Below, one piece after another: positions 1 to 36,584 of a stretch of 64,000 nt of DNA. A program made the position numbers and the translations under genes. This DNA comes from Ecytonucleospora hepatopenaei (Eukaryota; Microsporidia; Enterocytozoonidae). Below the pieces are notes generated by a model. It searched no databases and had not been told where the DNA came from. It worked only from the letters and a program-made list of their open reading frames with translations. The stretch's first letter is position 1. Each line of letters opens with the position of its first letter. The DNA is taken from assembly GCA_026692725.1 (NCBI GenBank), contig JAPMUG010000004.1:124001-188000 (forward strand), in the 5' to 3' direction.

Positions 1-928
1 CATCATTTTTATCTGTTGGCACTAATGAATTTGTTTCATTTTCTTCAACAACTGATTCTTCTTCAAGTTCTTCCTCTGTTTTTTCTTTTAATGTCAATTG
101 TTCTTCTAACTTAATTTTATTGTTTTCTTCTGTTAAAATCATGTCAAATAAATAACCCATTTGGTTTTCTTCATTATCTACATACTCATTGAGACATTCC
201 AAATTAAAAAAGCTTATAATTTTATATTTTTCTTTATTTTTAGTTATTGATTCTATTTCATTTTCATTTAGTGAAGCTTCTTCAAAAATGTATTTTCCAT
301 TTGAATTTTTTGAAAATACAATCTTACTTAAACTTTCTCCTTTTATATCTTGTTTATCCATGTTAAATTCACCATTGAATTTTTTTAAAATGTAAAATTG
401 TTTAACTTTATTATTTGTTAGTCTTTCTTCATTATTGTAACATAATACAACATTATCATATTCACCATTTTCTTTATAATTTGTTAAATCTACAAAAGAA
501 AATTCATATCCTTTAATACAATTGTTAACTATTCTTTTTGGTACATAATAATGTTTTCCTTCCACATGTATGCTATTTCCGTCTAAAAACACATACTTTT
601 CTTCTACATTAAGTTCAAATGTTTCATTTGCATCATTTTTATTAGTAAAAATTAAATCAAAACCATTATCTTCTATTTCTTCTTTATCTTCACTACTTAA
701 TGTGTTATGGTTTTTTGTTAATATTATTTGAAACGTAAATTGATCACCTTTTTGTAATGTTATTTCTCTACCCTCTTCTAATGTTATTTCTCTACCCTCT
801 TCTAATGTTATTTCTCTACCCTCTTCTAATGTTATTTCTTCACCTTTCTTAAATGTACCTTCTGTAGCACCTTCTACATCACTTCCTAAAGAGAAGTTTA
901 TTAAATATAAACTTATGTTTAGTAACAT
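1..928 (-). CDS. Type A surface protein A1, partial (3' end outside window)
   Basis: The ATG at 928 is directly preceded by ACCC. The frame stays open for 309 codons to the window edge, so the C-terminus is missing. The N-terminus (MLLNISLYLINFSLGS) is a short hydrophobic leader. Three copies of the octapeptide EEGREITL follow, then an ectodomain with blocks shared by the next three genes: FDLIFTNK, a CYNN..NKVKQFYI stretch, FNGEFNMDKQDI and GKYIFEEA. The C-terminal part seen here is Glu-rich and resembles the stalk of its paralogues; the expected membrane helix lies outside the window. It is the first of five tandem type A genes. The family is not one I recognise. The surface location is inferred from the leader and from the membrane anchors of the complete paralogues. 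Confidence 0.8.
   Translation of the reverse strand, partial: MLLNISLYLINFSLGSDVEGATEGTFKKGEEITLEEGREITLEEGREITLEEGREITLQKGDQFTFQIILTKNHNTLSSEDKEEIEDNGFDLIFTNKNDANETFELNVEEKYVFLDGNSIHVEGKHYYVPKRIVNNCIKGYEFSFVDLTNYKENGEYDNVVLCYNNEERLTNNKVKQFYILKKFNGEFNMDKQDIKGESLSKIVFSKNSNGKYIFEEASLNENEIESITKNKEKYKIISFFNLECLNEYVDNEENQMGYLFDMILTEENNKIKLEEQLTLKEKTEEELEEESVVEENETNSLVPTDKND
757..840. repeat. 24-bp in-frame tandem repeat in A1
   Basis: Three near-perfect 24-bp units at 757-780, 781-804 and 805-828, plus a partial fourth, encode EEGREITL repeats immediately after the leader. The unit length is a multiple of three, so copy-number change keeps the frame. Confidence 0.9.
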
Positions 929-970
929 GGGTATTAGGAGAAAAAAAGTTTAAAAATATGATTTTAAAAA

Positions 971-998
971 ATGATCAAAAAACAAATAACTAATAGTT
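971..998 (-). promoter_or_regulatory. Shared upstream element of A1
   Basis: A 28-bp block lies 43-70 bp before the A1 start. On the plus strand it begins ATGATCAAAAAAC and ends CTAATAGTT. The same 28 bp recur at 2787-2814 and 4898-4925, with one or a few changes at 7838-7865 and 9221-9248. A second shared block, with a GGAAAAATC-like part and TTTTAACCTATC, lies about 150-180 bp from the start. A role as transcription-factor site is inferred from conservation and position. Confidence 0.55.
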
Positions 999-1305
999 GG
1001 TTAAAACTTCTTTTTATATAAAATAAATTAGAAAAATCAACAAATATTTGTATTTACAAAATATCACTAAATTTTTTGATTTTTCCTTAATTCATTTTTT
1101 TGATAGGTTAAAAAATAAATATTTTTTATAAACTTCAATATAAACTATAATATTAAGTATTTAATTTAAAAACAATTTTTATAAAAATATTTATTTTCAA
1201 ATTATTTCTTATAATATATTTATTATTAAATTATTTCTTATACTTTTTTATTATTAAATTATTTATATAATATGTTTTTTATTAATTTATTAATATGTTA
1301 TCAAA

Positions 1306-2745
1306 TTATATTTCATCATCTTTTTCATTATTTTCTAATTTTTTTCTATATATGATAACACCTATCAATCCAAGTGATAATAAAATAACAATTGTCATAA
1401 TAGCAATTGAAATTTTAAATAATTTGCTGCCTTTTTTATTTTTTTTCTTTTTAATTTCTTTTTCAACATTAGCAGGAGTTTCATTACTAATTACAGTCTC
1501 AGCATTAGCAGGAGTTTCATTATTAACATTAGTCTCAGCATTAGGAGATTCCTCTTCTAAGGGTGAAGAAACCTTTTCATGTGTTACTAAAGTGTCTGTT
1601 TCTTTTTCAAGTTTATCATCATTTTGTGGATTTATTATGGTTTCATCTGTTTCTTTAAGAATTTCATTATTAGTTAAATTGTTACCATTTTGTAAATTTT
1701 CACCAGAATTTTCCTTATGTTCTGAGTTTAAAGTTTCTTCAGTGATATTTTCAGGCTTTTCTTCAGTGGAAATAACATCAGGCTTTTCTTCAGTGATATT
1801 TTCAGGCTTTTCTTCAGTGGAAATAGGAACATCAGGCTTTTCTTCAGTGGAAATAGGAACATCAGGCTTTTCTTCAGTGGAAATAGGAACATCAGTGGCA
1901 GTAGTATCAGGCTTTTCTTCATCGTCTTTACCTTTATTTATAGAAGACTCTTTTTTAATATCTTTTTTTTCATATAATTGCATTATTTCTTGTAAAATTA
2001 CAGGACTAACTTTTTTTTGTGTTTTCATTTCGACATAAACATTAAAAACATCCCTTTCTTTTTCTGTATAATAAATATTTAACTTATCTATATTAAGACA
2101 GCATATACACTCATATGAATTTTTATTATTCTTATAACTCAAATCAAATTCTTGTTTTTCCTTATCAGTCAGCTGTATTTCTTCAAAAATGATATTTTGT
2201 CCCTCATCTCTTGTAAAAACAATTTTAGATAAATTTTCACCTTTTAAAAAATCATTTGAAATGTCTAATTGAACATTTGAATTTTTAATCACGTAAAAAG
2301 TATCCACATTTTTAGTATTTATTTCATGTTTCTTATAACATAGTGTAATATAACCATCATTTTCAGTTTTATAATTAAGGTCCTTTGAATCTTCAAATCT
2401 AAACTTTACACCCAATGGTTGTTTTCCATCTTCTGATTTATCCAAATCACAACAATATGTTTTATCATCATTTATTTTAAATGTCATTTTTTGTCCAATA
2501 AAAAAGCTTTGTAAAATATTAAGAGCAATTTTGTCACGTTCATCATTTTTATTAGTAAAAACCAAATCAATAGAATCATTATTGGATTTATTATCTTTAT
2601 CAATTTTCTCTCTTTTTTTAAGTTCTATTAAAGTAAAATATGTAACATCTTTACAAATATCTATTATAGTACCTGGGTTTTCTATAAGTTCTTCAGTTTT
2701 TCCTAAAGAAAATTCTAAAGCTAACAGACTAATATTTAGTAACAT
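1306..2745 (-). CDS. Type A surface protein A2, repeat-stalk, single-pass
   Basis: This 479-residue protein starts at an ATG preceded by ACCC. It has a hydrophobic leader (MLLNISLLALEFSLG), an ectodomain to about residue 270 with the family blocks SIDLVFTNKND, FYVIKNSNVQLDI and IIFEEIQLTDKE, and a repeat stalk of EEKPDVPIST units around residues 275-340. A Glu/Asn/Thr-rich linker follows. A membrane helix lies near residues 440-462 (ISIAIMTIVILLSLGLIGVI) with the tail YRKKLENNEKDDEI. Architecture suggests a type I membrane protein displayed at the cell or spore surface. It is more diverged in the ectodomain than A1, A3 and A4. No enzyme motif is visible. Confidence 0.85.
   Translation of the reverse strand: MLLNISLLALEFSLGKTEELIENPGTIIDICKDVTYFTLIELKKREKIDKDNKSNNDSIDLVFTNKNDERDKIALNILQSFFIGQKMTFKINDDKTYCCDLDKSEDGKQPLGVKFRFEDSKDLNYKTENDGYITLCYKKHEINTKNVDTFYVIKNSNVQLDISNDFLKGENLSKIVFTRDEGQNIIFEEIQLTDKEKQEFDLSYKNNKNSYECICCLNIDKLNIYYTEKERDVFNVYVEMKTQKKVSPVILQEIMQLYEKKDIKKESSINKGKDDEEKPDTTATDVPISTEEKPDVPISTEEKPDVPISTEEKPENITEEKPDVISTEEKPENITEETLNSEHKENSGENLQNGNNLTNNEILKETDETIINPQNDDKLEKETDTLVTHEKVSSPLEEESPNAETNVNNETPANAETVISNETPANVEKEIKKKKNKKGSKLFKISIAIMTIVILLSLGLIGVIIYRKKLENNEKDDEI
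1739..1922. repeat. 30-bp in-frame repeat array in the A2 stalk
   Basis: Units of about 30 bp with shorter 24-27-bp variants encode EEKPDVPIST, EEKPENIT and EEKPDVIST. The three central copies are nearly identical at the DNA level, which points to recent expansion or homogenisation. Confidence 0.85.
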
Positions 2746-2786
2746 GGGTATAAGGAGAAAAAAAGCTTTAAAATATGATTCAAAAA

Positions 2787-2814
2787 ATGATCAAAAAACA
2801 AATAACTAATAGTT
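2787..2814 (-). promoter_or_regulatory. Shared upstream element of A2
   Basis: The 28-bp block is identical to that upstream of A1 and lies 42-69 bp before the ATG. The surrounding GGAGAAAAAAAG-like spacer is also conserved. Confidence 0.55.
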
Positions 2815-3557
2815 CATTTTTTATGTTTAAATAGTTAAAATCCATTTAAATTAAATAAAAAACATTATAAAAATATCAGTAAATTTTTGATTTTTCCTTT
2901 TTTTATTATTTGATAGGTTAAAAATTTAAACATTTTTTGATTTATACATAATTATTTTATGTTTATACGTAGTTAATAATATATAATAGATAGTTAATAA
3001 CCTAATAATATATAATATAAAAAATATTTTACATAATATTTTTACATATCAGTTATATACCATAATAAGACTAATCTTTACACTATATATAAAATTATTT
3101 TTTAATTTTTCTATTTCCCAGGTTATTTATATCAGATTTAGCTTTCAGTTTATATATTTATTAATATTAAAAAATCTAATCATAAATATTTCCTTATAAC
3201 TAAAAGGATGGGTTAAACTGTTTTAAATGTTTATAAAGTTTGGGTTAAGCTTATATAATAAACAAAAATAATAAACAAAAATAATAAACAAAAATAATAA
3301 ACAAAAGGTAAGGTTAAATTTAATTATGATTATACTATAATTAGACATATAAAACATTATAACATCTTAACTTATATAAATGCAATAAACAATATAGTCA
3401 TAATTTAATATAAAATAACATTAAAAAAATTAATAATTTATTTAAAAAAGATATTTATAATAAATACAATTTAATAATTTTTTAATAATAAGTTATTTAT
3501 ACAGTTTAATTTAATATAATTTAATATTATATTATATTATATTAGTGTGCTATTAAA
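2815..3557. other. Intergenic, no gene seen
   Basis: About 740 bp of AT-rich DNA. It holds the second conserved upstream block of A2 near 2886-2925 and a short tandem repeat of ATAAACAAAA-type units at about 3256-3306. No ORF with coding character was seen. Confidence 0.6.
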
Positions 3558-4856
3558 TTATATTTCAATATCTTTTTCATTATTTTCTATTCTTTTTCTG
3601 TATATGATTATACCTATTAATACTGATACTAATAAAATGATAATTGCCATAATAGCAATTGCAATTTTTAGTAATTTAATGCCTTTTTTATTTTCTTCTT
3701 TACTTTCTCTTTCAACATTAGCACTCTCATTATTATTAGCATTTTCAATATTATTAGCACTCTCATTATTATTAGCATTTTCAATATTATTAGCACTCTC
3801 ATTATTATTAGCATTTTCAATATTATTACTACTCTCATTATTATTATGAGATTCTGTTTCTGTAGAAAAATTATTAGGTGTTAATTTTTTAGTCTTATTT
3901 TTTATATAATTATATTCTTCAGCACTAAAAAAACTACTTTCACTACTTTCTTCATTTCCTTTACCTTCTAGCTTTACTGGAATATCCCTCCCAGTTTTTT
4001 CTTTTTTTAATGTCAATTCATCTTTTAACACAACTTTAGTGTTTTCTGAAAACATCATTTCATATACAAAAGAATCATATTTTTCTTTTTTAGTGTTCAT
4101 AAAATAATTGAAACAGCCCAAATTAATAAAGTTTATAATTTTATAATGTTCTTTGTTTTTATTTAATGCTTCTAATTCATTTTTATTTAGTGGAGCTTCT
4201 TCAAAAATGTATTTTCCATTTATATCTGTTGTAAATAATATTTTTGTTAAACTATCTTTATTTATGTCTTGTTTTTCCATGTTAAATTCACCATTGAAAT
4301 TTTTTATAATGTAAAATTGTTTTACTTTATTAGTTTCTTCTTTTTCTATATTATTATAACACAATGCATGATTACTAAATTTATTATTCTTTTTAAAATT
4401 TTCAAGACCTACAAAAGAAAATTCAGTTTTATTTTCTTCACCTTCTGGTAAATAATAAGGTTTACCATCCACATGTATTTTACTATCGTTAATAAACGTA
4501 TATGTGTAGTAAATGTTTAATTCAAGTGTTTCATTTTTATCAGTAAAAACTAAATCAAAACTATTACCACCTACTTGTTCATCTTCTTCATCTACTTGTT
4601 CATCTTCATAATCATAATCATAATCATCATAATCATAATCATCATCTTTATAAACTTGTTCTTCTTCACTATTTATTGTATTATCTTTTTTTGTTATTGT
4701 TAATTCATTGAAAAACAAATCATTTTTTTGCAATGTTAGTACATCATCTTTTTTAAATGTAATTTCTTTATCTTTTTCTATTGTAGCTCCTGTAGCACCT
4801 TCTGTAGCACTTCCTAAAGAATAGTTTATTAAATATAAACTTATGTTTAGTAACAT
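3558..4856 (-). CDS. Type A surface protein A3, repeat-stalk, single-pass
   Basis: This 432-residue protein starts with ATG after ACCC. The leader (MLLNISLYLINYSLGS) is nearly identical to that of A1. An acidic Asp/Tyr/Glu stretch (about residues 66-96) interrupts the ectodomain before FDLVFTDKNETLELN. Then come CYNNIEKEETNKVKQFY, FNGEFNMEKQDIN, GKYIFEEAPLNKNE and INLGCFNYFMN, which are strongly shared with A1 and A4. The stalk is a repeat of NNESANNIENAN units, followed by a membrane helix (IAIAIMAIIILLVSVLIGII) and the tail YRKRIENNEKDIEI. Function unknown; surface display is inferred. Confidence 0.85.
   Translation of the reverse strand: MLLNISLYLINYSLGSATEGATGATIEKDKEITFKKDDVLTLQKNDLFFNELTITKKDNTINSEEEQVYKDDDYDYDDYDYDYEDEQVDEEDEQVGGNSFDLVFTDKNETLELNIYYTYTFINDSKIHVDGKPYYLPEGEENKTEFSFVGLENFKKNNKFSNHALCYNNIEKEETNKVKQFYIIKNFNGEFNMEKQDINKDSLTKILFTTDINGKYIFEEAPLNKNELEALNKNKEHYKIINFINLGCFNYFMNTKKEKYDSFVYEMMFSENTKVVLKDELTLKKEKTGRDIPVKLEGKGNEESSESSFFSAEEYNYIKNKTKKLTPNNFSTETESHNNNESSNNIENANNNESANNIENANNNESANNIENANNNESANVERESKEENKKGIKLLKIAIAIMAIIILLVSVLIGIIIYRKRIENNEKDIEI
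3717..3842. repeat. 36-bp in-frame repeat array in the A3 stalk
   Basis: About three and a half copies of a 36-bp unit encode a 12-residue Asn/Glu/Ser/Ala motif (NESANNIENANN). It is unrelated in sequence to the repeats of A1, A2 and A4, although it sits at the same place as in A2. Confidence 0.85.
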
Positions 4857-4897
4857 GGGTATTAGGAGAAAAAAAACACTAAAATATGATTTTAAAA

Positions 4898-4925
4898 ATG
4901 ATCAAAAAACAAATAACTAATAGTT
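4898..4925 (-). promoter_or_regulatory. Shared upstream element of A3
   Basis: The 28-bp block is identical to those of A1 and A2, 42-69 bp before the ATG. The conserved upstream copy ends near 5040, where the inverted-repeat element begins. Confidence 0.55.
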
Positions 4926-5040
4926 GATTATTGATGTTTAAATAGTTAAAATATAGAAAAATAAATAAAAATCATTTTTAAAAAAATTTCAAAAAATATT
5001 CAGATATTTCCTTTACTATTTATTTTTAGGTGGATATTTC

Positions 5041-5243
5041 TTGACCCTTAAAAAATTCTCAAAACCCATAAAAAATTTTGTTCACCCATAAAGTCTGTCC
5101 GCCACCCCTTAAATTAATCTCTAAACCCATAAATTATGTATCTCTAAACCCATAAATTAGAAGCTTCATTTTCAATTAACCAAGGTAAATAATTGGTGTT
5201 TAGAGGTTTTTTATGGGTTTTGAGAATTTTTTATGGGTGTAGC
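5041..5243. mobile_element. MITE-like element with long terminal inverted repeats
   Basis: A perfect 26-bp inverted repeat lies at 5050-5075 and 5209-5234 (core TTCTCAAAACCCATAAA and its complement). It extends outward with one mismatch to about 5046 and 5240. The interior carries more copies of the CTAAACCCATAAA motif, so one short word is repeated about six times in both orientations. The element is richer in C and G than its surroundings and has no ORF. This fits a miniature inverted-repeat element or the scar of one. I see no clear target-site duplication. Confidence 0.5.
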
Positions 5244-5376
5244 TGTATTTATTCAATAAAATATAAGAATTAAATTTAATTTACTAAAAAGTAATAATTA
5301 TATATAAGTATGATTAACATAAAAATAAATCAATATATAATTTTTAATTAATACTTCTCATTATATTATTATATTA

Positions 5377-7794
5377 TTATATTTCATCCTCTATTTTATT
5401 ATTTTCTAATCTTTTTTTATACATAATAACACCTATTATTATAAACAAAAGTAAAAATGTAATAACCATCAATATTATAACAGTCATAATTAATTTTTTA
5501 TTCTCTTTTTTATTTTCTTCCTTACTCTCTGTTTGAACATTAGCAGTCTTATTATTATCAGTATTATTATCAGTATTCTTAATATTTTTATTTTTATTCT
5601 TATTTTTATTCTTAATAATATTTTTATTTTTATTCTTATTATTATTATCAGTATTCTTAATATTATCATTAGTAGATTCTTCTGTATTAGTTACAGTTAC
5701 TGGTAATGAATTATTATTATTTTTTATAATATTTTCTTGAGCATTAGTAACTTTACTATCTTCACTACCATTACTATTATGATTTATTTTATTATGAGAT
5801 TGTTTACCACTTTGATTGATACTTCCATTAATATGTTTGATATCATTATTCTTATGAGATTCTTTACTATTATCATTATTTGATTCTTTATGTGGTTTCT
5901 GACCATCTAATTTACTATTAGTATTAGTATTAGTATTAGTATTAGTATTAGTATTAGTATTAGTATTAGTATTAGTATTAGTATTAGTATTAGTATTAGT
6001 ATTAGTATTAGTATTAGTATTAGTATTAGTATTAGTATTAGTATTAGTATTAGTATTAGTATTAGTATTAGTATTAGTATTAGTATTAGTATTAGTATTA
6101 GTATTAGTATTAGTATTAGTATTAGTATTAGTATTAGTATTAGTATTAGTATTAGTATTAGTATTAGTATTAGTATTAGTATTAGTATTAGTATTAGTAT
6201 TAGTATTAGTATTAGTATTAGTATTAGTATTAGTATTAGTATTAGTATTAGTATTAGTATTAGTATTAGTATTAGTATTAGTATTAGTATTAGTATTAGT
6301 ATTAGTATTAGTATTAGTATTAGTATTAGTATTAGTATTAGTATTAGTATTAGTATTAGTATTAGTATTAGTATTAGTATTAGTATTAGTATTAGTATTA
6401 TTCGTATTATTGATTTCTTTTACACTATTACTTATATTACTTATATTACTGATATTACCTATATTACCATTATTACCATTATTAGTATGTTTAGTTTCAT
6501 TTATTTGTTTATGTTGTATTATACTTCCATTATTAGTTGGTTCTTTATTTTTATCACTTATCTTATTATTCTTATTATGTATGTCACTTCCAGTACTTTT
6601 TAAGTTATCCCCTGTATGCTTTGTTGTATTGTCGATTGTAGGTTTATGTTTTTTACTCTCACTGGTTACAGATGTATCTGGTTGACTTCTTTTATTTATT
6701 ATTTTATGAGATGATTCATTATCATTATCATTATCATTATCTTTTAAATTTATTTCAGATCCATTACCATTTTTTTTGTTTTCCTGTAACTTATTATCTT
6801 TTTTTCTTATATTATCAATACCACTGGTAATATTATTTTTAATTTCTTTAGTAATGTTGCTCATATTGTGTAATAAACCACTTGCTGTATTTTTAAATTT
6901 ACTACCTTGTGATTTATTTATACCTTTTATACATTTCTGTCCTTCTTCTACTTTTTGTACTGAAGTATTTGTATTATTAGCTATTTCTTCTTTTATTGTA
7001 ACTTTATCTTTCAATATAACTGTATTGTCCATTCCATCAAAAACCATATTTATGCTTATATACTTGTTTTGTAGGTCATTACGGTTCATAAAACAATTTA
7101 AAGCAAACAAATTAATAAAGTTTATAATTTTGTATTCTTTTTTGTTTTTATTAAATGTATCTATTTCTTCTTTTTTTAGTGAAACTTCTTCAAAAATGTA
7201 TTTTCCATCTGTTTCTTTTGTAAATACAATTTTTGTTAAACTCTCTTCATTTATATCTTGTTTATCCATGTTAAATTCACCATTGAAATTTTTTAAGATA
7301 TAAAATTGTTTTACTTTATTATTTTCTTCTTTTTCTATATTATTATAACATAATGTAACATTTATAGAAATATTGCTATTATATTTATATTTATATTCTT
7401 CTTTATTTTGAAAAATAAATGATATACCATTTTGTATGTTTGTATTATTTTCTTCTGTCTTATTTAAATTTGTAGAGTTTTTATTATTTTCTTCTGTCTT
7501 ATTTAAATAAACATTCGTATTATTATCAATAAAATATAATTTTTCTCCAGTAATAAGTTTATACGTATGGGTTACATTAAGTTTGATTGTATCATCTTTC
7601 TTATCTTTATTAGTAAAAATTAAATCAAAACTATTTTTTATATTATTACCTACTGCTTTAGTTTTATTTATAACCAGGATTGATTTAAATGAACAATCCT
7701 TTGAAAAATTCATTTCAGTATTTACGCCATACTTAGTTTCTTTATAGTTAGCAAAAGAAAAGACTAATGATAACAAGCTTATACTTAATAACAT
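5377..7794 (-). CDS. Type A surface protein A4 with giant Asn-Thr repeat stalk
   Basis: At 805 residues this is the longest member. ATG follows ACCC. The leader (MLLSISLLSLVFSFA) and ectodomain (to about residue 270) carry FDLIFTNKD, CYNNIEKEENNKVKQFYI, FNGEFNMDKQDIN, GKYIFEEVSLKKEE and INLFALNCFMN. A long hydrophilic region rich in Asn, Lys, Thr and Ser follows, with about 80 Asn-Thr dipeptides between roughly residues 465 and 627. Further Asn/Lys-rich sequence leads to a membrane helix (LIMTVIILMVITFLLLFIII) and the tail YKKRLENNKIEDEI. The stalk carries many Asn-X-Ser/Thr sites. Surface display is inferred. Length probably varies between isolates through the repeat. Confidence 0.85.
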   Translation of the reverse strand: MLLSISLLSLVFSFANYKETKYGVNTEMNFSKDCSFKSILVINKTKAVGNNIKNSFDLIFTNKDKKDDTIKLNVTHTYKLITGEKLYFIDNNTNVYLNKTEENNKNSTNLNKTEENNTNIQNGISFIFQNKEEYKYKYNSNISINVTLCYNNIEKEENNKVKQFYILKNFNGEFNMDKQDINEESLTKIVFTKETDGKYIFEEVSLKKEEIDTFNKNKKEYKIINFINLFALNCFMNRNDLQNKYISINMVFDGMDNTVILKDKVTIKEEIANNTNTSVQKVEEGQKCIKGINKSQGSKFKNTASGLLHNMSNITKEIKNNITSGIDNIRKKDNKLQENKKNGNGSEINLKDNDNDNDNESSHKIINKRSQPDTSVTSESKKHKPTIDNTTKHTGDNLKSTGSDIHNKNNKISDKNKEPTNNGSIIQHKQINETKHTNNGNNGNIGNISNISNISNSVKEINNTNNTNTNTNTNTNTNTNTNTNTNTNTNTNTNTNTNTNTNTNTNTNTNTNTNTNTNTNTNTNTNTNTNTNTNTNTNTNTNTNTNTNTNTNTNTNTNTNTNTNTNTNTNTNTNTNTNTNTNTNTNTNTNTNTNTNTNTNTNTNTNTNTNTNTNTNTNTNTNTNTNSKLDGQKPHKESNNDNSKESHKNNDIKHINGSINQSGKQSHNKINHNSNGSEDSKVTNAQENIIKNNNNSLPVTVTNTEESTNDNIKNTDNNNKNKNKNIIKNKNKNKNKNIKNTDNNTDNNKTANVQTESKEENKKENKKLIMTVIILMVITFLLLFIIIGVIMYKKRLENNKIEDEI
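5915..6400. repeat. Hexanucleotide array (TATTAG)n, about 81 copies, coding
   Basis: About 486 bp of uninterrupted hexamer, read on the minus strand as AATACT, encodes alternating Asn-Thr. Six-base units preserve frame whatever the copy number. The array is almost free of substitutions, which implies recent expansion. Confidence 0.95.
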
Positions 7795-7837
7795 GGGTAT
7801 ATGAGGAAAAAAAGTTTAAAAATTTGTTATTTAAAAA

Positions 7838-7865
7838 TTGATCAAAAAATAAATAACTAATAGTT
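7838..7865 (-). promoter_or_regulatory. Shared upstream element of A4
   Basis: TTGATCAAAAAATAAATAAC followed by TAATAGTT, two substitutions from the A1-A3 copies, 44-71 bp before the ATG. The second block (near 7955-7990) is also present. Confidence 0.5.
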
Positions 7866-8126
7866 ATTTATTTGGTGCTTAAATAGTTAAACTATAATAA
7901 AAAGTAATAAAAACAAACATAAAATTTTTTATAAAAAATATCACAAAAATATTTTGATATTTTCCTTTTTATATTTTTTGATAGGTTTAAAATAAAATAC
8001 TTTTATAATTAGAAAGTATATGATGTTTATAATCAAATAATATTTTTATAATCAAATAATATTTATTTAAGTTTATAATTAAATAATATTAATATATTTT
8101 ATTTATTTATTTATTTTTTTATTTAT

Positions 8127-9187
8127 TCATAATGTATTATCTGTATTATTATATAATACTCTTTTATTATATAATAATCCTATTAAGCTTAATAAAAATA
8201 ATAATGAAAATATTAGCAGTATAATAGCAAGTATAAATATTTTTTTACTCTTTTTATTTGTTTTATCTTTTTTTAATTTACTTTTGTTTATATCATTATT
8301 AACATTATTATTATTTAAATTATTATTATCATTATTTAAATTATTAACATTATTATTTAAATTATTATATTTATTATATAATAAATACATATCATCAAGT
8401 ATTTTTACTGTATTTTTATCACTCTTAAATATAGTGTATAATTTGTATATCCTATATGATATTTTGTCACTAAATAATTTTTCAATATCTTCTTTATACA
8501 GACTGATTACTTCATAACTCTCTTTATTTTCTTCAAATACCTCTTTTTCTTTATCTGTCAACTTTTTCTCATACAAACTAAATTCTGCAACTCCATTATA
8601 TGTAAAATACACTTTATAAACATCATTACAACTTACATTAAATGAGTTATCACCAATATTACCATCAAAACCATTTAGTAAATAAAACTGTGCTATCTTC
8701 CCTTCTTTATCCGCATCCTTTTTGTTATAACATAAAAAAGACATACAGTTATTGCATGTGAAATCATAAGCATACTGTTTATTAGGTAAAAATTGAATTT
8801 CTAGATTAAATCCTTTGTTAAGTGATTTTTCTGTTATATAGGAATATTGTTTACCATTGTATGATATATCATCAATATCTTGATCAATCACATATGTTTT
8901 ATTAATGATAAGTTCAATAATGTCTTTTTTATTGTTTTTATGAGTAGTGAATAATTTTATCACTTTTTTAATTTGACTCAATTATATCTTCTTCTATTTC
9001 TTTTATTTATATTTTCTTCTATTTCTTCTAATGTGATTGGTGATGAATGATCTTTTTTTGTAATGAAATATTTGATAGCAAAATTTGTATCTTTAGGTAA
9101 TTCTATACAATTATTTTTCTTTAAGATAATTCCATTTGCTTTTATTGTAGATTAAAATGTATTCAAAAAATAAAAATCAAATAACAT
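8127..9187 (-). pseudogene. Broken type A surface protein gene A5
   Basis: The family start ACCCATG is present at 9187 but its frame stops after 11 codons. A second frame carries an N-terminal part (residues such as ILKKNNCIELPKDTNF and FITKKD) until a stop near 8981. A third frame, open from about 8981 with no ATG at its beginning, carries the rest: LFTTHKNNKKDIIEL, FLCYNKKD, AQFYLLNGFDGNI, an Asn-rich linker, a membrane helix and a short tail. At least two frame changes separate the pieces. This is either a decayed paralogue or an assembly with indel errors in A/T runs. Its upstream element is also degenerate, which favours true decay. Confidence 0.7.
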
Positions 9188-9220
9188 GGGTATAATAAGG
9201 GTAAACTTGATGATAAAAAC

Positions 9221-9248
9221 TGATTAAAAAAATAAATAACCAATAGTT
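9221..9248 (-). promoter_or_regulatory. Degenerate shared upstream element of A5
   Basis: TGATTAAAAAAATAAATAAC then CAATAGTT. The TGATCA core of the intact copies is changed to TGATTA and CTAATAGTT to CCAATAGTT. Confidence 0.4.
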
Positions 9249-9658
9249 GGTTAAATAGTAAAAGTATTGTACAAAAAATAATTTTCTAAAAAATTTTAAA
9301 AACTTATGTTTTTTATGATTTATTCCTTTTTATATCAATCAAAAATCATTATTTTTACTGAAATATTCTTTTGTTTTATAAAAATAAAAATATTATAATA
9401 AAAATTATAAAAAATATAATTAATATAATTAATATACAAAAAATAAGATATAGCAACTTAATACTTTTATTTTCTGTTGTATTAAATTTTATTATGTTTT
9501 ATTTTTATTTAGGTTATAAACAATTTTATTAGGCATTTTATACAATTTTATTAAGGTTATAAATATAACACAAATATTAGTAAATAACATTTTAGTATAA
9601 TTCAATAATAATCTAATTATTTATTTAGTAATGATATTAATATTTAACTTTTATATAT
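9249..9658. other. Intergenic, no gene seen
   Basis: About 410 bp, AT-rich, between the 3' end of B1 and the upstream region of the broken gene A5. No ORF or clear structural signal was found. Confidence 0.5.
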
Positions 9659-10981
9659 TTATATATTTAAATTATTATTTTCTAATGTATTTTTAATCAA
9701 TGCATTTCTTTTTCTTTTTATTTTTATCACTAATAAAATAACTAAAACAAATAAAATCAAAACACATAAAATTATAAATAATATCTTAATATTTTTTCTA
9801 CTTATCTTTTTCTTAGTATTATTTAAATTATTACCAGTAATATTATTATTATCTTTTATACTATTTTTATTAGTAATATTACTGTTATTTACTTTATCAG
9901 TAATATTACTGTTATTTATTTTTTCAGTAATATTACTGTTATTTATTTTTTCAGTTTTATTACTGTTATTTATTTTATTAGTAATATTACTGCTATTTAT
10001 TTTATCAGTAATATTACTGTTACTGTTTACTTTATTAGTAATACTTTTATTTTTAATTTTATTATTATCTTTTATATTATTCACTTTATCAGTAATATTG
10101 TTATTTACTTTATTAGTAATATTTCTGTTATTTATTTTATCATTATTTTCTTTTATACTATTTACTTTATCAGTAATATTGTTATCTTCTAATATTTCTA
10201 CATAATTCTTATCCCCTGTAAATTTTGCATCTACTTCATATTCTAATATTTTCTGATCACTATTTAAAAACTTATTAAATTTTACTGAATCAAGATGTAC
10301 AGCCATGTACTTATTGCAAGCGCTGAGGAAAATGCTGCAATCGACACTTCGCTGGTTTTGTGATGTAATTTTATACCCTTCTGGGTATTTTTTTATTTTT
10401 AATATCCTAAAGCCATCTAATTCTGTACAATAATCGACATTTCTAATGCGATCTTCTATGGAACGCTCAAATTCATATTTTAATCCTGGAAATAAAATTA
10501 TTTCAACATCATTTTTTACATATGTATTTATATCCTTGGTAATATTTTTAAAACACGCTGAAGCATATAAATCATCAGTATCTTTTTCGTATTTATAGAT
10601 TTTTGTTGGTTTAAAATAGGTAATAGGCTTATTATTTATTACTTTAATGGTATTTTTTAAATTTACAATATTATTAGCATTTTTTACTGTTTCATATGAC
10701 ATGGGAAAGAAACATCTTTTCTCTATTAAAATGGTAAAAGACGTTGTTTTATTATTTCCTTCATATAAATATGAAAAGGCATAATCTATTACATTATAAT
10801 TCTTTGCTGTTAAATAATTTTTTCTATACAAATCAACATCATCAACTTTAGTAAATTTATATGATATTTTAAATGGCATGTTTTTAAGTATTTCCACTAA
10901 ATTAGACTCATCTATTTCTTCATTTTTATTACTAAATAAGTTATTTAAAAAACTTAATGTATTTGAAAAAAATTTAAACAT
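9659..10981 (-). CDS. Type B surface protein B1, single-pass
   Basis: This 440-residue protein starts at an ATG with CCCTAT just upstream. The N-terminus (MFKFFSNTLSFLNNLFSN) is only weakly hydrophobic. The conserved region, to about residue 265, has FKISYEFTKVDDVD, a YAFSYLYEGN stretch, KRCFFPMSYE, KYEKDTDDLYASACFKNITK, and a final YEVDAKFTGDKNYVEILED. A repetitive stalk of NNSNITDKV-like units follows (about 275-390). Then come basic residues, a membrane helix (ILFIILCVLILFVLVILLVI) and a tail with KIKRKR. It is the paralogue of the gene at 12405-13505. The last ectodomain block also resembles the matching block of types A and C. Function unknown. Confidence 0.8.
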   Translation of the reverse strand: MFKFFSNTLSFLNNLFSNKNEEIDESNLVEILKNMPFKISYKFTKVDDVDLYRKNYLTAKNYNVIDYAFSYLYEGNNKTTSFTILIEKRCFFPMSYETVKNANNIVNLKNTIKVINNKPITYFKPTKIYKYEKDTDDLYASACFKNITKDINTYVKNDVEIILFPGLKYEFERSIEDRIRNVDYCTELDGFRILKIKKYPEGYKITSQNQRSVDCSIFLSACNKYMAVHLDSVKFNKFLNSDQKILEYEVDAKFTGDKNYVEILEDNNITDKVNSIKENNDKINNRNITNKVNNNITDKVNNIKDNNKIKNKSITNKVNSNSNITDKINSSNITNKINNSNKTEKINNSNITEKINNSNITDKVNNSNITNKNSIKDNNNITGNNLNNTKKKISRKNIKILFIILCVLILFVLVILLVIKIKRKRNALIKNTLENNNLNI

Positions 10982-11264
10982 ATAGGGATGTGAAAAATTT
11001 TATTATTGACTATTGATTTTTGATCAATATTTAAAAAATAAAAATATAATCAATTGTTTTCGTTTTACAATTTATTAATTTAAATATTTTTTAATACTTT
11101 TGATTTTAATTGTCAAATAAATCACTATATTTTTCTATAAATGGTAAAGTTTTTAAATTTAAAAACAAATAAAATGTAGTGTAAAAATAAAAAGTATTAA
11201 AACTATATAATATCTTTAAGTCATAATTTTTATCCATAATGAAACTATTTTAATTATTATTTTA

Positions 11265-12260
11265 TTAACTATTTATGTTGTTTTCTTTTATTAATTTTAC
11301 TTTTTTAAGTCTTAATAATGTTAATGCTACCAATCCAACACAACTCATAACTACCATTGAAACAAATATTACAGCAAAAACTGTGCCTTTTTTCCCTCCA
11401 TGTGTGTTATGCGTATTAACTTTGTTTGTTTTATTTTCTTCTGTAACGTAACAATCATTTAAAAGTTTAACTTGCTGTTTGTTTTCACAGAAATTCATTA
11501 TACTTTGAAATGCACATGGATCTTTCGTATTTAGCAATTCCTCTAAAAATTCATTCTTTAACAAAATGCATTTATATTTATTTCTTAAAAAATCTCTATA
11601 TTCTGTCTTACTTACCTTTTTACCATGATTTATTTCATACATACTCTTTTTCTTAATAAACTCTAATTTACAAAGTTTATTTGAATCTATGGTAAAGTCT
11701 GTTGCTACTTCAGAATTTTTGTTTTTCTTTTCAAAAATGGACTTAAAATCATCAAAATAAAAGGCATCTTTATTTGTGAAAAAATTCTTTTTCTCTACAA
11801 TTGGAAAACAAAAGTGTTTTTTATCAACACCATTTTTATTAAATGCTGTGTATTTGCAATTAGACTCAAAATCAAAATAAAAAGCATTCTTAACATCTGC
11901 AAAAGACTTAAAAAATTCTTCTTTGGGCGTATAAGAATATTTTTTGTCTCCTACGGTAAAAAACACTTTTACACCAAAATGTGCATATGTTTTTATTTCA
12001 AACACTTTTTTAGTAAAAGCAGAAATGTCAACCATTACATTGCTAATATCAATGATTTGTGGAATTTTACCAATCTTTTTTATTTTTTCCTGATAACTTA
12101 ATTGTCTGTATTCCTTAGTTATATCTTTAAATTCATGACATAACCTAAATGTAGTTCCTTTATCAACGGTAACTACAGTTCCTTTTGGCAACAATACATC
12201 TTTACTAGCATTTATTTTTATTATATAAATATTTATTATATATAAAAATGTAAATATCAT
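11265..12260 (-). CDS. Type C surface protein C1, single-pass
   Basis: 331 residues; ATG with ACCC 10 bp upstream. A clear hydrophobic leader (MIFTFLYIINIYIIKINAS) precedes LLPKGTVVTVDKGTTFRLCHEF, then KYSYTPKEEFF, NAFYFDFESNCKYTAF and a final ectodomain block FCENKQQVKLLNDCYVTEE. A short Asn/Thr/His linker, a membrane helix (VFAVIFVSMVVMSCVGLVAL) and a basic tail end the protein. It has several cysteines conserved with C2, so the ectodomain is probably disulphide-bonded. There is no tandem-repeat stalk, unlike types A and B. Function unknown. Confidence 0.8.
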   Translation of the reverse strand: MIFTFLYIINIYIIKINASKDVLLPKGTVVTVDKGTTFRLCHEFKDITKEYRQLSYQEKIKKIGKIPQIIDISNVMVDISAFTKKVFEIKTYAHFGVKVFFTVGDKKYSYTPKEEFFKSFADVKNAFYFDFESNCKYTAFNKNGVDKKHFCFPIVEKKNFFTNKDAFYFDDFKSIFEKKNKNSEVATDFTIDSNKLCKLEFIKKKSMYEINHGKKVSKTEYRDFLRNKYKCILLKNEFLEELLNTKDPCAFQSIMNFCENKQQVKLLNDCYVTEENKTNKVNTHNTHGGKKGTVFAVIFVSMVVMSCVGLVALTLLRLKKVKLIKENNINS

Positions 12261-12404
12261 TCTTTTTAGGGTAAATAAAAATTTATTTAAAATTTATTAA
12301 AAAATGATAAAAAAATCAATAATTCATATTTAAAAATAAAACCACAATTTTGCTTTATTTCAAAAATTAAATCACTAAATTTTTATTTTTTATTTAGTGA
12401 TTTT

Positions 12405-13505
12405 TTATAGTTTAATATCACTAATTTTATTTCTGTTACGTATTTTTATTTTTAGTAAAATTATAATAATAAAAACAAATAAAAGCAAACCACTCGATAC
12501 TGATATAAATATAATAAAATATTTTAAAACTGTTCTTTTTCTTTTTTTCTCACTATCATATAAATCATCACTATCATATAAATTATCATATAAATCATCT
12601 CTATCATATAAATTATAATTTTTCTTATTTTTATAACTATATGTTTTATTAGACATATTAGTCCTTTTTACTTCTTCTAGAATTTCTATGTAATTTTCAT
12701 CACCAATGAACTGTGCATCAATTTCATATTCTAATGAACCTTTATTTCCTCTGATAAAATCATTAAATTTCTTTACATCAAGATCTACCAAAATGTATTT
12801 ATGCACTGTTTTTGCAAAATTTACAGAAGAATCTGTATATTGCTTACTAAATTTAATGTTTAAGGAATTGTCTTTTTTAGTTAATAAAACTCTTTTAAAA
12901 CTTACAGTGTCATAATTAAATCCTGGTGTTTTTTTAGAAGAGTTTTTTCTCGTTCTTTGTGATGTAATTTCTCTTTTTGGAAAAACTACAATTTCAACAT
13001 TCTTTTTAACATAACTTTCCTTCTTCTTTGTAATATGTTTAAAAAGTGTTGATAAAAGAGTGTTTTTTGTATTTTTAGCATATTTATATTCAGTTACTGG
13101 TTTAAAAAAGCATCTGTAATTTTTATTTGGTGGATTATTTACAGTATTTGAATTGTCTTTAGTATTTAAATCAATAGAATCATTTTTATTGTCATTTGCT
13201 TGTTGAAATGGTTCAGTAAAATAGCATCTTTTTTGCACTAATATGTAATATACCAGAGGTAAATTTTTTGTTCCATACAAAAATGAAAATGCGTATTCTG
13301 ACACATTTTTGTCTTTTATGTAACTTTTTTGCAATGTGTTTATATCTTTAACCTTTATAAACTCATAAGAAATTTTAAACTTAGTTTCTTTGGAAACTTT
13401 AAACAAATTTTTGTTTTTATTACTTGAAATATTACTTACTTTTCTATTTAAACTTTTAGTAGAGTCAAATAGCTTTCCAAAAAATAAATATAAATTTTCA
13501 AACAT
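12405..13505 (-). CDS. Type B surface protein B2, single-pass
   Basis: I place the start at the ATG at 13505, one codon inside a GTG, because the protein then begins MF like B1. It has 366 residues. Conserved with B1: FKISYEFIKVKDIN, EYAFSFLYGTKN, QKRCYF, EYKYAKNTKNTLLS, FKHITKKKESYVKKNVEIVVFP and YEIDAQFIGDENYIEILEE. The stalk is short, with LYDRDDLYDNLYDSDDLYDS repeats. A membrane helix (YFIIFISVSSGLLLFVFIII) and a basic tail follow. With its neighbour C2 it forms a duplicate of the B1-C1 pair. Confidence 0.8.
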   Translation of the reverse strand: MFENLYLFFGKLFDSTKSLNRKVSNISSNKNKNLFKVSKETKFKISYEFIKVKDINTLQKSYIKDKNVSEYAFSFLYGTKNLPLVYYILVQKRCYFTEPFQQANDNKNDSIDLNTKDNSNTVNNPPNKNYRCFFKPVTEYKYAKNTKNTLLSTLFKHITKKKESYVKKNVEIVVFPKREITSQRTRKNSSKKTPGFNYDTVSFKRVLLTKKDNSLNIKFSKQYTDSSVNFAKTVHKYILVDLDVKKFNDFIRGNKGSLEYEIDAQFIGDENYIEILEEVKRTNMSNKTYSYKNKKNYNLYDRDDLYDNLYDSDDLYDSEKKRKRTVLKYFIIFISVSSGLLLFVFIIIILLKIKIRNRNKISDIKL

Positions 13506-13668
13506 CACTATTTTATGTATGGTTTAAAATTATTGAAAAATTTTATATTTAAAAATGATATAAAAATCAATAATTAATAATTTGTTATAAGATGTATTTT
13601 AAAGTGTATCAATTGAATATAAAACACATTTTTATTTAAAAAATATATAAAATTATTTTTTTAGTATT

Positions 13669-14706
13669 TTATTTTATTAATTCTACCTTTTCACTAGACT
13701 CTTTTCTTAATTTAATAAAACAAAACAAAACCACACCAATACAAGATATTGTTAACAAAGAAACAAATCCTATAATAAAATTTCCTGTTTTTTTCTTTTC
13801 TGGATTATTTTTATTATTTAAGTTATTTAAATTATTTAAGCTTATTTCAGTAACATAACAATCATTAAGAAGTTTTACTTCCTGCTCATCTGCACAAAAT
13901 TTCATTGTCGTTCTAAAACCAATTTTACCATCAAAATCATTAGCCAATTTTGATAAAAAATCAAACTTTAAATAAAGACATTTGTATTCTGATAATTTTT
14001 TCATAACAAATTCTTTTTCATAAGCTTTCATTTTTTCTTTCCTCACTACATTGTTAATTAATTTCTTTTTTACATTTATACGACATAGATCATCCTGTTT
14101 AATGGTAAAATTAGTTCCTACTTTTGTAAACTCGTTTTTAACAGTAAACATCGGCATAAATGTGTCAAAATATAAAATTCTGTCCTTATTTTTCCTTTTT
14201 TTAGGAATTATTATATTTTTTATTTTGCTTAAAACATTTTTTTTATTTGAACCATTAAAAATGGGAAATAAAAACGCTTTAAAATCTGCATGGTATTTTT
14301 CAACAATTTCATACATGCAATCTGGTTGTAAATTAAAATAAAATGCATTTTTATCAGTAAGTAAATAATTATATGAATCCTTCTTAGGTCTATAAACATA
14401 TGTTTTATTTCCCATTTTTAAAGGAACATTTCTTGGAAAAAATGCATAAGTAGAAATAAGCAATTTTTTATTCTCTCCCGCATTATTTTTTAAACAAACA
14501 ATATCATGATCAACATTTTTACCAATTATCATTTTTTTATCTGAATTATACAAACCATTTAAATCTTTTTGAACATTATTGATCACAGAAAATTCATATT
14601 GCAAACAAAACATAGAATCCTTTTCAACTCTTACCACACTTCCTTTAGGCAGCAATATTTCTTTTTCTGCTAAAACACTATTAAATAAAATATATGTAAA
14701 TATCAT
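13669..14706 (-). CDS. Type C surface protein C2, single-pass
   Basis: 345 residues; ATG with ACCC a few bases upstream. The leader MIFTYILFNSVLAE is followed by ILLPKGSVVRVEKDSMFCLQ, TYVYRPKKDSYNYLL, NAFYFNLQPDCMYEI, ILYFDTFMPMF, the block KVGTNFTIKQDDLCRI and FCADEQEVKLLNDCYVTE. A short Asn/Leu linker, a membrane helix (FIIGFVSLLTISCIGVVLFC) and a basic tail end the protein. It is clearly homologous to C1 through the whole length. It is the last member of the array and lies 175 bp from the end of HSP90 on the same strand. Confidence 0.8.
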   Translation of the reverse strand: MIFTYILFNSVLAEKEILLPKGSVVRVEKDSMFCLQYEFSVINNVQKDLNGLYNSDKKMIIGKNVDHDIVCLKNNAGENKKLLISTYAFFPRNVPLKMGNKTYVYRPKKDSYNYLLTDKNAFYFNLQPDCMYEIVEKYHADFKAFLFPIFNGSNKKNVLSKIKNIIIPKKRKNKDRILYFDTFMPMFTVKNEFTKVGTNFTIKQDDLCRINVKKKLINNVVRKEKMKAYEKEFVMKKLSEYKCLYLKFDFLSKLANDFDGKIGFRTTMKFCADEQEVKLLNDCYVTEISLNNLNNLNNKNNPEKKKTGNFIIGFVSLLTISCIGVVLFCFIKLRKESSEKVELIK

Positions 14707-33795: not shown

Positions 33796-33947
33796 TTATT
33801 TTATTATTTATTATTAAAAAATAAATCTTTTTTATCATTATTAGTAAACAATAAACAATACTTGTATACGCTTAATAAAAAAATAAGTTACTAAATAAAA
33901 CATAATAAAAATAATTTACAAAATTTATTAAATTTTTAATAAATAAA

Positions 33948-34622
33948 TTAAATATCTCTAAGTTGTTCATATAAATGTGTTTTTATCTCATTATTACATA
34001 ATAAAATTTGTTTTTTTCTTAATATGTGACCAATAAAATGTATAAGTGTTTCCAGTTCTTTCTTTTTATCTTTAAAATGTGTATTTATCAATCCAATCTT
34101 CTTTTTGAGAATTTCTTTTTCTTTTTCCATTAAAATGTATGAATCATCTGTAAACGGATCATTTTTTGATTCTAAAGAAATGTTTGTTTCCTTAACACTT
34201 CTTTTTATACACTTTACTGTGCGTGGATTTGTCTTTTGTTTTTCTATCCTTTTAGTCTCTAATTCTGTGTGTTTTATCATATCATCTGTGCTTTTAGTTA
34301 TGTCTTTATAAAATTCTAATAATTTTTCATCTGCATATGGATTATCGGTAAAAATAAAATTAGGTTCAACATAATCAAATATTTTTTTGATTTTTATAAT
34401 TTTTGCTAATGATTCTGTAATTTTTGTTTCTTCTTCTAATTTAAGTGATTTTGAGCCGATAAAAAAATTACAGATTTTTGATGCTACTTCATTTATCTCA
34501 AATTCTTCATCTGAATCATTTTCTTCAAAAACATTATCTGATTGTTTTGGTAAATTATCAAAAGCATCTAGTGGTATGTTTGATGCAGCATTTGTTACTT
34601 TTATTAAAAAATATAAAAACAT
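33948..34622 (-). CDS. Coiled-coil secreted protein D2
   Basis: 224 residues. Leader MFLYFLIKVTNAASNIPL, then an acidic stretch (NVFEENDSDEEFEINE) and a helical C-terminal domain ending in a region rich in Lys and Leu (KKKIGLINTHFKDKKKELET, then HFIGHILRKKQILL). The post-leader sequence NAASNIPL resembles NTANIPL of the Pro/Lys/Ser-rich protein at 19145. The upstream element TGATCA plus CTAATAGTTT lies at 34682-34702. Function unknown. Confidence 0.7.
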   Translation of the reverse strand: MFLYFLIKVTNAASNIPLDAFDNLPKQSDNVFEENDSDEEFEINEVASKICNFFIGSKSLKLEEETKITESLAKIIKIKKIFDYVEPNFIFTDNPYADEKLLEFYKDITKSTDDMIKHTELETKRIEKQKTNPRTVKCIKRSVKETNISLESKNDPFTDDSYILMEKEKEILKKKIGLINTHFKDKKKELETLIHFIGHILRKKQILLCNNEIKTHLYEQLRDI

Positions 34623-34681
34623 TATTTGTTTATTTCACAAACATTTTTTATTTATAAAAATATAAATATTTTTATCTAAAA

Positions 34682-34702
34682 ATGATCAAAAAACTAATAG
34701 TT
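34682..34702 (-). promoter_or_regulatory. Shared upstream element before D2
   Basis: ATGATCAAAAAACTAATAGTT, that is the type A element with the middle eight bases removed, 60-80 bp before the D2 start. Related TGATCAAAAT sequences lie before D3 (35461) and D4 (36456), and TGATCA before D6 (39088). Confidence 0.5.
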
Positions 34703-34768
34703 TAAATTTATAAATTTAAATTACATATTTAAACAATATGTAAAGATCATAACAATGTTTTTTATTTA

Positions 34769-35434
34769 TTATTCGATTGTTTTTTGTTTTTCTTCGAGAA
34801 TTTCAAGAATTTTATTAAAAGTCATTTCAATTTTTGACGCTTTTAAACAATAAAAAATTGTTTTTAAACATGTTTCAAAAATTGTGATTATCTCAAGTTT
34901 CAATTTTATTTTGTTTATTTCCTCAATTTTTACACTAATTTGCTTTTCTAATTCTGCATCGTCACTTTCTTGTGTCCACCCATATGGTTTGGTTTGTTTT
35001 GCTTCTTTTAATGATCTTACTTCATGCCTCAAAATTTCGAGATTTGTCTCGTGTTTTTGTTGATCAGACTTTTCTACATCTTTAAATGAATTTTTGTACA
35101 ATTTTATCTGTATTAATTTTAACAGTGTTTTTTTAACAGTACATTCAGTTGTATCATCTACTTTTTTATCAAATAAATCACAAAAAATAGCCTCTATAAC
35201 TCTAAAATCATGAATTTTTTCTAAATTTTCTTTAAAAAATTTCAAAAATTCATCATGACATTTTCCTGTTGGTGGAAATATTTTTGCACCTGAGTCCGTT
35301 TCAAAAAAATTTTTTATATCAAGGCTTACATCTTCTTCATCATAACAATCATAAGAATGTTCATTTGAATATTTCTCATAAGCAGCTGCAGCAAACACGT
35401 TTTTAACGAACAAAAGAATTGTTTGTAAAAACAT
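34769..35434 (-). CDS. Coiled-coil secreted protein D3
   Basis: 221 residues; ATG directly after ACCC. Leader MFLQTILLFVKNVFAAAAYE, with an Ala-rich likely cleavage site. A short acidic region is followed by helical sequence with VEKSDQQKHETNLEILRHEV and KQISVKIEEINKIKLKLEII. No membrane helix. Four cysteines lie in the middle and C-terminal part. Function unknown. It is clearly of the array type by plan, though sequence identity to D1 and D2 is low by eye. Confidence 0.7.
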   Translation of the reverse strand: MFLQTILLFVKNVFAAAAYEKYSNEHSYDCYDEEDVSLDIKNFFETDSGAKIFPPTGKCHDEFLKFFKENLEKIHDFRVIEAIFCDLFDKKVDDTTECTVKKTLLKLIQIKLYKNSFKDVEKSDQQKHETNLEILRHEVRSLKEAKQTKPYGWTQESDDAELEKQISVKIEEINKIKLKLEIITIFETCLKTIFYCLKASKIEMTFNKILEILEEKQKTIE

Positions 35435-35652
35435 GGGTTGTTACTAACAAAGATTTAAAATGATCAAAATAACAATAATAAATAATAACAACTTTTCGGT
35501 TTGTTCTAAAAAAATATTTTAAAAAATTAAAATAATCAAATTATTAAAACTTTATAATAAATTAGAAATAAAATAATTTTTTGGTTTGTTACAAACAATT
35601 CTTATATATTAAATTTTTAATAAGTACATATATATTATTTTATTTTACAATT

Positions 35653-36405: not shown

Positions 36406-36584
36406 AATAGGGATATTGTTTGTTTTTCTTTTATTTATCATTTTCAAAACAAAAGTGATCAAAATGTTGATAGTTTAAATATTGTAATTTTATACTAACA
36501 TATAGAAAATAAAAAATATCATATATATATAATAAAATAATAATAAAATTTATTTTTTGTATGTAAATAATAAATTAAATAAAT

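Follow-up and report, generated by a model that had tools for sequence, protein, structure and literature searches.

The microsporidian Ecytonucleospora hepatopenaei (EHP) stunts farmed shrimp, and we know of few of the proteins with which it faces its host. We analyzed a stretch of 64,000 nucleotides of its contig JAPMUG010000004.1 (the window; contig C8, 124001-188000, in a genome of 3,094,744 bases in 13 contigs) that begins within a tandem array of genes of three types, A, B, and C, and asked how these genes are related to each other and to others in the genome. As the original prediction, made from the letters of the window, had proposed, nine genes on the same strand (five A, two B, and two C) lie head to tail on the minus strand and fill C8:123012-138706, that is, window positions 1-14706 and the 989 bases preceding the window, where A1 could be completed. 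The genes, their stalk repeats, and an upstream element described below lie at the following window positions.

Nine Tandem Genes and a Shared Upstream Element

2..928, minus strand: A1, first 309 codons (full gene C8:123012-124928, 638 amino acids, completed outside the window)
972..989, minus strand: promoter element of A1
1306..2745, minus strand: A2, 479 amino acids
2788..2805, minus strand: promoter element of A2
3558..4856, minus strand: A3, 432 amino acids
4899..4916, minus strand: promoter element of A3
5377..7794, minus strand: A4, 805 amino acids
5912..6400: A4 stalk repeat, 6-base unit, 81.5 copies, 99% matches, encoding (Thr-Asn)n
7839..7856, minus strand: promoter element of A4
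8127..9187, minus strand: A5, broken copy (open reading frame 8127-8744, 205 amino acids from ATG)
9216..9234 (C8:133216-133234), minus strand: degenerate promoter element of A5
9659..10981, minus strand: B1, 440 amino acids, with neither a promoter element found nor a clear signal peptide
9865..10180: B1 stalk repeat, 27-base unit, 11.6 copies
11265..12260, minus strand: C1, 331 amino acids
12305..12322, minus strand: promoter element of C1
12405..13505, minus strand: B2, 366 amino acids
13556..13573, minus strand: promoter element of B2
13669..14706, minus strand: C2, 345 amino acids
14738..14755, minus strand: promoter element of C2

Open reading frames (ORFs) are intact in eight of the nine genes (A1, A2, A3, A4, B1, C1, B2, and C2), and all eight follow the predicted plan, in which a head of about 250 residues is followed by a stalk of low complexity, a single hydrophobic helix, and a tail of 14-21 residues. 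Tandem repeats occur in the stalks of A2, A3, A4, B1, and B2; the A4 repeat, with its near-perfect copies, is possibly hypervariable and usable for strain typing. A5 is a member of the array as proposed but not an intact one: its ATG is kept at window position 9187, a stop follows after 11 codons in that frame, and the N-terminal half of the head is divided between two frames; the C-terminal half of the head is still open, as are the stalk and the helix (8127-8744). B shows no convincing signal peptide, the best N-terminal 11-mer hydropathy being 0.83 and 0.90 in the two B proteins vs. 1.55-2.55 in A1-A4, C1, and C2.

Many members carry a short element of the form TATT..TTTT(G/T/A)ATCA(T/A)TTTT about 10-165 bases upstream of the ATG. 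A first, longer form of it, TTATTKNTTTTTWNATCA, is common to the upstream regions of A, B, and C and matches the window exactly at seven sites, each in front of an array gene; if one mismatch is allowed, the number rises to 11, in comparison with a mean of 0.95 and a maximum of 3 in shuffled sequence. A matrix built from A1-A4 only gave 17.1 bits for C1, 13.9 for B2, 13.9 for C2, 6.3 for A5, and 0.0 for B1, against a mean of 2.6 (SD 5.6) at 49 other local ORF starts. The top three of these controls (21.9, 14.1, and 12.0 bits) turned out to be genes of a second array of secreted type at 34-36 kb of the window.

A Dispersed Superfamily

Whole-genome searches with single proteins returned matches in the array alone (eight for the A3 head, all within the five A genes, and two each for B1 and C2), and the family was therefore first taken, wrongly, to be confined to it. 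A genome search with the array's element led to secreted or membrane proteins elsewhere that had been missed by the array's own proteins and that bridge the gap between A, B, and C. Searches with three of the proteins found in this way added further loci, a single F protein retrieving eight copies, itself included, at C12:45377-57427. The array of the original prediction is real, but the family is dispersed: we count 28 gene copies at seven loci, with 5 of type A, 2 B, 2 C, 6 D, 5 E, and 8 F, of which the sequences of four were read. Besides contig C8, the loci are at C7:129-133, C11:12-16, C11:100-106, C12:45-57, C12:79, and C12:110 kb, the last two being single genes; D occurs on contigs C7, C11, and C12, and E on C11 at about 100-106 kb. 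The array is internal to its contig (123-139 kb of 235,882 bases), as are the C12 loci (45-111 kb of 170,298 bases), and one locus lies 12 kb from the start of C11.

The proteins come in several forms. In A, B, C, and four of the six D genes the head is joined to a stalk of varying length, a single membrane helix, and a short tail; two D proteins have no such helix, nor do the E proteins or the three F proteins that were checked, and each of two D genes has two heads. Simple hydropathy was computed for 23 A-F proteins, five F copies being outside the set, and the N-terminal 11-mer reaches 1.4 or more in 19 of them; the four below this value (B1, B2, the A5 open half, and the L068 ORF) all have a C-terminal helix. 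L068, on contig C11, contains a 227-residue head fragment (537-1217, E 4e-8), outside our count, and immediately after it a 449-residue gene that lacks a signal peptide (1336-2682); the arrangement suggests either a two-headed gene that was split or a break in the assembly.

Three further groups, G (contig C1), H (contig C6), and I (contig C2), share the element and the architecture and were considered as members, but the superfamily profile misses them and they stand outside the count. Homology of G to A-F is marginal (score 21.2 vs. a shuffle maximum of 20.6) and that of the others marginal or absent, while G is related to I (E 5.8e-7). The head-stalk-helix plan is seen in L075 (contig C1, 65400-70350), a three-gene array, and in L043 (contig C6) and L054 (contig C2), a pair and a single gene besides; the element lies upstream of five of these six genes, and their relation to A-F is unproven.

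Homology of A, B, and C

The original prediction placed A, B, and C in one deeply diverged superfamily and proposed profile and structure comparisons as checks. Direct comparison of the three family profiles with hhalign was not significant (P 0.07-0.3 for local and 0.28-0.94 for global alignment), although in one comparison the three top local matches fell into a single, mutually consistent register, and bridging groups were therefore sought. In profile comparisons among nine groups, these gave E values of 7.1e-6 for B-D, 3e-5 for B-E (over 211 columns), 4.1e-4 for C-E, 2.8e-4 for D-E, 8.4e-5 for D-F, 2.5e-3 for E-F, and 0.041 for A-D, with a top score of 17.3 among 36 reversed comparisons. 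When each array type was left out in turn, a BCDEF profile detected A from end to end (score 33.8, E 3.8e-4, 225 columns), a CDEF profile detected B (score 40.3, E 3.5e-5, 39 columns), and a BDEF profile detected C (score 39.1, E 4.8e-5, 111 columns); the maxima of 60 column shuffles per test were 17.9, 17.4, and 18.8, respectively. A superprofile made from a 24-row alignment and screened against 231 ORFs gave E values of at most 4e-8 for seeds and fragments and at least 0.2 for other ORFs, a separation that is partly circular for the seeds. The A5 open half is the exception among the members (whole-sequence E 23, best domain 1.9e-4), and its membership is based on the A profile (E 5e-12).

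A family-level permutation, in which alignment columns were permuted jointly so as to keep the relatedness within types, agrees with this. With BLOSUM45, z was 4.0 for A-B, 5.1 for A-C, and 5.5 for C-B, and none of 1,000 shuffles reached the observed score in any of the three; across three matrices and two ways of shuffling, z lay between 2.6 and 6.7, and the observed score was reached by no more than 9 of 1,000 shuffles (A-B, BLOSUM62). Reversed sequences gave z between -0.9 and 1.3, and 76 decoy chunks of unrelated local ORFs a mean of about 0, an SD of about 1, and a maximum of 2.9. Three of ten further nonmembers exceeded z 3 against a single family (3.1, 3.7, and 4.0), so the permutation z alone is not decisive. 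Two small proteins adjoining the array (C8:118310-118903, plus strand, and C8:119015-119668, minus strand), with signal-like N termini and a C-terminal hydrophobic stretch, were likewise tried as members: they gave z 2.8 and 4.0 against A, but the superprofile gave E 4.3 for the first and did not list the second.

AlphaFold models were made from disjoint sets of sequences, the A4 head with A sequences only and the C1 head with C and B only. On the sequence-only alignment of the nine genes, there are 56 columns in which both models have a helix or strand, and they have the same one in all 56; agreement was best at zero offset among offsets from -60 to +60. The last head block also aligns across A, B, and C, as predicted. 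Both models are of low confidence, the mean predicted local distance difference test (pLDDT) scores being 49.2 (A4) and 48.5 (C1), both below 50. On the leave-one-type-out profiles and the bridging groups, with permutations and secondary structure in agreement, A, B, and C are a single deeply diverged superfamily, a question that we judge settled.

Queries with A, B, and C profiles against 5.8 billion proteins returned five proteins, all of them alleles of this array (99-100% identity apart from a stalk indel) and two of them the window's own; no other relatives appeared in this word-based search, in which one profile search scored the best 7,998 candidates. Nothing exceeded the curated Pfam cut-offs among eight array proteins (A1 left out; best subthreshold E 0.0012) or ten dispersed ones (eight from D-F and two from G-H). 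Sequence searches against solved structures in the PDB gave nothing significant (best E 0.07). A PCNA/sliding-clamp fold was suggested by weak Foldseek matches of the A model, which were not repeated with the C model and which VIA did not support. That no solved structure matched convincingly in these comparisons does not show a new fold.

Enrichment of the Element before Surface and Secreted-Type Genes

Genome-wide, TTATTKNTTTTTWNATCA has 15 matches vs. 1 for the reversed pattern; of its eight matches outside the array only one (L026) precedes an ORF of secreted type, meaning one with a hydrophobic N terminus, judged by eye or hydropathy, and this form was dropped as too loose. The shorter core TTTTTGATCATTTTT has 12 exact matches vs. 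0 for the reversed pattern. They lie before A1-A3, before L049 of the second array, before family members of types D (L045 and L052), E (L050), and F (L051), and before a group-H gene (L043), L042, L041 (a 130-residue ORF with a hydrophobic start), and L044. The TTTTWTATCATTTTT form, with WTATCA, has 11 matches vs. 3 reversed, and six of them fit (C1, B2, C2, L054, L058, and L063). A gapped form has 30 matches vs. 3 reversed in 3.09 Mb, and 22 of the 26 inspected precede a secreted- or surface-type gene or gene remnant: 15 lie before A-F copies (among them the broken A5, a head fragment on contig C11, and, at C12:46.6 kb, an F copy in whose first half no ORF starts with an ATG), 5 before G-I genes, and 2 before other secreted-type genes.

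Since many members of the family share the element with other surface or secreted genes, they are probably switched on jointly at one life stage. That it was only inherited through duplication and marks no regulon is doubtful. The 15 of 26 inspected matches that precede members of one superfamily are what inheritance would give, but L042, which the superfamily profile misses, L079, and three genes of the second array carry the element outside it, so it is not merely a family heirloom; in A, C, and B2, moreover, its position close to the ATG has been kept, though their heads have diverged beyond pairwise detection. Whether this short T-tract/(G/T)ATCA/T-tract element is a dedicated cis-regulatory code of host-facing proteins, defining a stage-specific regulon that joins a new superfamily of unknown fold, located at no fewer than seven loci, to secreted and spore-surface proteins unrelated to it, is in our estimate evenly balanced.

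Known microsporidian upstream signals, CCC-like and AAATTT-like, mark most genes or those of ribosomal and abundant proteins (PMC2803860). CCC is found just before the ATG in A1-A4 too; the present element differs in being rare and mainly located before surface- and secreted-type genes, and term searches of the main text of PMC2803860 returned neither GATCA nor TATCA. Literature searches, only one of them directed at promoters, found no paper on the superfamily or the element in openly available main texts; a family list in a supplement is possible.

Evolution within the Array

The six pairs of A heads have ratios of nonsynonymous to synonymous substitution rates (dN/dS) of 0.86-1.16 (A1-A3 0.31/0.28, A1-A4 0.48/0.47, A3-A4 0.40/0.44, and A2 pairs 0.64-0.74/0.61-0.74), in comparison with 0.41 and 0.45 for the B and C pairs. 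Neutral change simulated at this composition gave mean ratios of 0.73-1.34, and the A heads are thus unconstrained or mixed; we do not claim positive selection. In the block from LCYNN to YKII, dS is lowered among A1, A3, and A4 (A3-A4 0.18 vs. 0.55, A1-A4 0.28 vs. 0.50, and A1-A3 0.22 vs. 0.35) and not in pairs with A2, a pattern that partial gene conversion would leave and that supports it. The recombination and rapid divergence of the original prediction are therefore supported inside A, with the fast change at the neutral level.

For three genes, one sequence each from another isolate or record could be compared. The A2 allele EHP00_817 (459 amino acids) has a 20-residue shorter stalk and is otherwise identical, the head included; B2 is identical at 364 of 366 residues, and C1 shows no differences in 312 aligned.

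Known Spore-Surface Proteins and Gene Families

In Table 2 of PMC8874471, OQS54917 is listed among the high-abundance proteins of the EHP spore surface, and 11 unique peptides are given for it. L042, which is preceded by the element, has the same length, mass, and isoelectric point (459 residues, 50.6 kDa, pI 5.01), an agreement in these values and not a sequence match. A2, whose other allele also has 459 residues, was considered for OQS54917 and rejected, its 52.8 kDa and pI 4.75 differing from the listed 50.6 and 5.01. Several of the spore-surface proteins described there (EhSWP1/2/3/7 and OQS54917) resemble the superfamily in having a membrane helix, C-terminal in EhSWP3, and the gene matching OQS54917 bears the element, but L042 is outside the superfamily by profile.

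Microsporidia are known to have large families that are specific to a lineage and carry signal or membrane sequences (PMC5423893, PMC10393165). With 28 copies, the superfamily has more than the 10 homologous members per species by which PMC5423893 defines such families, and in this it is like NemLGF, InterB/DUF1609, and others described in these sources. Their signal sequences or membrane helices have probable counterparts here, as judged from simple hydropathy, the folds are mostly unknown in both cases, and as in those families no relatives were found elsewhere, here with the A, B, and C profiles. In contrast to them, it has no Pfam match above cut-off, and so no sign of DUF1609, leucine-rich repeats (LRR), or ricin-B lectin; it unites anchored, soluble, and two-headed forms, and its element links it to other surface genes.

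Other Genes in and around the Window

33948..36441, minus strand: second array, three element-bearing genes (33948-34622, 34769-35434, and 35653-36441)

These three genes, which the superfamily profile does not find, belong to a second tandem array (window 32908-39050, minus strand) of six small genes with hydrophobic N termini and charged, helix-rich looking bodies; those at 36585 and 38289 are clear paralogues (z 32.6). The first array is flanked by what we take to be a Rad3-like helicase on one side and HSP90 on the other. Upstream of it, C8:104201-111503 (L009 and L010) presumably holds LINE-type and Ty3-type reverse transcriptase ORFs, and transposase-like pieces lie at C8:97797 and 112512. 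Further along the window are a 1,336-residue helicase-like protein with Asn/Thr/Tyr-rich insertions in a stretch of 17% GC (41712-45722, minus strand) and a gene that we take for a GH19-like chitinase (48468-49343, minus strand). Elsewhere, two near-identical P-type-ATPase-like genes (C5:49333, L055, and C5:65237, L056) lie 16 kb apart on opposite strands and differ in a local segment.

Discussion

The analysis shows homology, dispersal, architecture, and enrichment of the element. From them we infer, with a probability of roughly two in three, that the nine genes form a single cluster within a lineage-specific and probably coregulated superfamily of stalked surface or secreted proteins that would face the host. 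The common unit would be an alpha/beta head of about 250 residues and unknown fold. Duplication would have carried the family to seven loci or more, and inside A there would have been partial homogenization and slippage of stalk repeats. Most likely the heads would be exposed at the plasma membrane of the parasite or set free, and would touch components of the host; the C-terminal helix may bring B to the membrane. Display toward the host is suggested by the signal sequence or C-terminal helix, the stalked head, the fast A heads, and the promoter shared with a spore-surface gene, and the heads may bind host molecules.

Several results weigh against this reading. Over all aligned columns, agreement between the two low-confidence models is 0.60, and in two other hhalign runs (A-C and A-B) the best match lay outside the consistent register. 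To these are added the nonsignificant direct profile comparison, the nonmembers above z 3, and the poor superprofile score of A5. B1 and B2 have no clear signal peptide by N-terminal hydropathy, and no promoter element was found before B1. The element was read off the array first and counted afterward; beyond the single secreted-type ORF among the eight outside matches of the longer form, one TTTTTGATCATTTTT match (L044) precedes a uridine-kinase-like gene, 5 of the 11 TTTTWTATCATTTTT matches are not before a secreted-type gene, and 4 of the 26 inspected gapped matches (C2:35407, C6:185212, C8:162229, and C12:71093, all contig positions) have no such gene. Finally, no array protein fits any of the 15 high-abundance spore-surface proteins listed in PMC8874471 by length and mass.

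The last point bears also on an alternative that we regard as unlikely, namely that the superfamily has a structural role, its members anchoring the spore wall to the plasma membrane or endospore during sporogony and binding no host molecule. A stalk and helix would suit wall tethering, and the element lies before the gene that matches OQS54917, a protein detected on spores by mass spectrometry; but no array protein fits the list by length and mass, though stalk lengths vary between isolates, and the A heads have a dN/dS of about 1, which structural parts do not usually show. Convergence of unrelated A, B, and C proteins on one architecture, for which the failure of direct profile matches might speak, is very improbable and already largely refuted by the leave-one-type-out detection, the bridging groups, the permutations, and the matching secondary structure. 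An antigenic-variation system as in protozoan parasites, a likeness drawn in the original prediction and one for which tandem copies, fast A heads, and repeat-rich stalks might speak, is hardly credible: the array is contig-internal and not subtelomeric, the single further sequence compared for each of three genes has the same head in A2 and in C1 and matches B2 at 364 of 366 residues, and the shrimp host has no adaptive immunity and no antibodies.

The superfamily and its element provide a testable list of surface and secreted candidates of EHP, stalk repeats that may be of use in strain typing, and a means that may lead to the host-exposed proteins of other microsporidia that evolve fast. 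If the element is indeed a code of host-facing proteins, the promoters of a microsporidian would reveal its exported repertoire even where homology can no longer be seen in the sequences.

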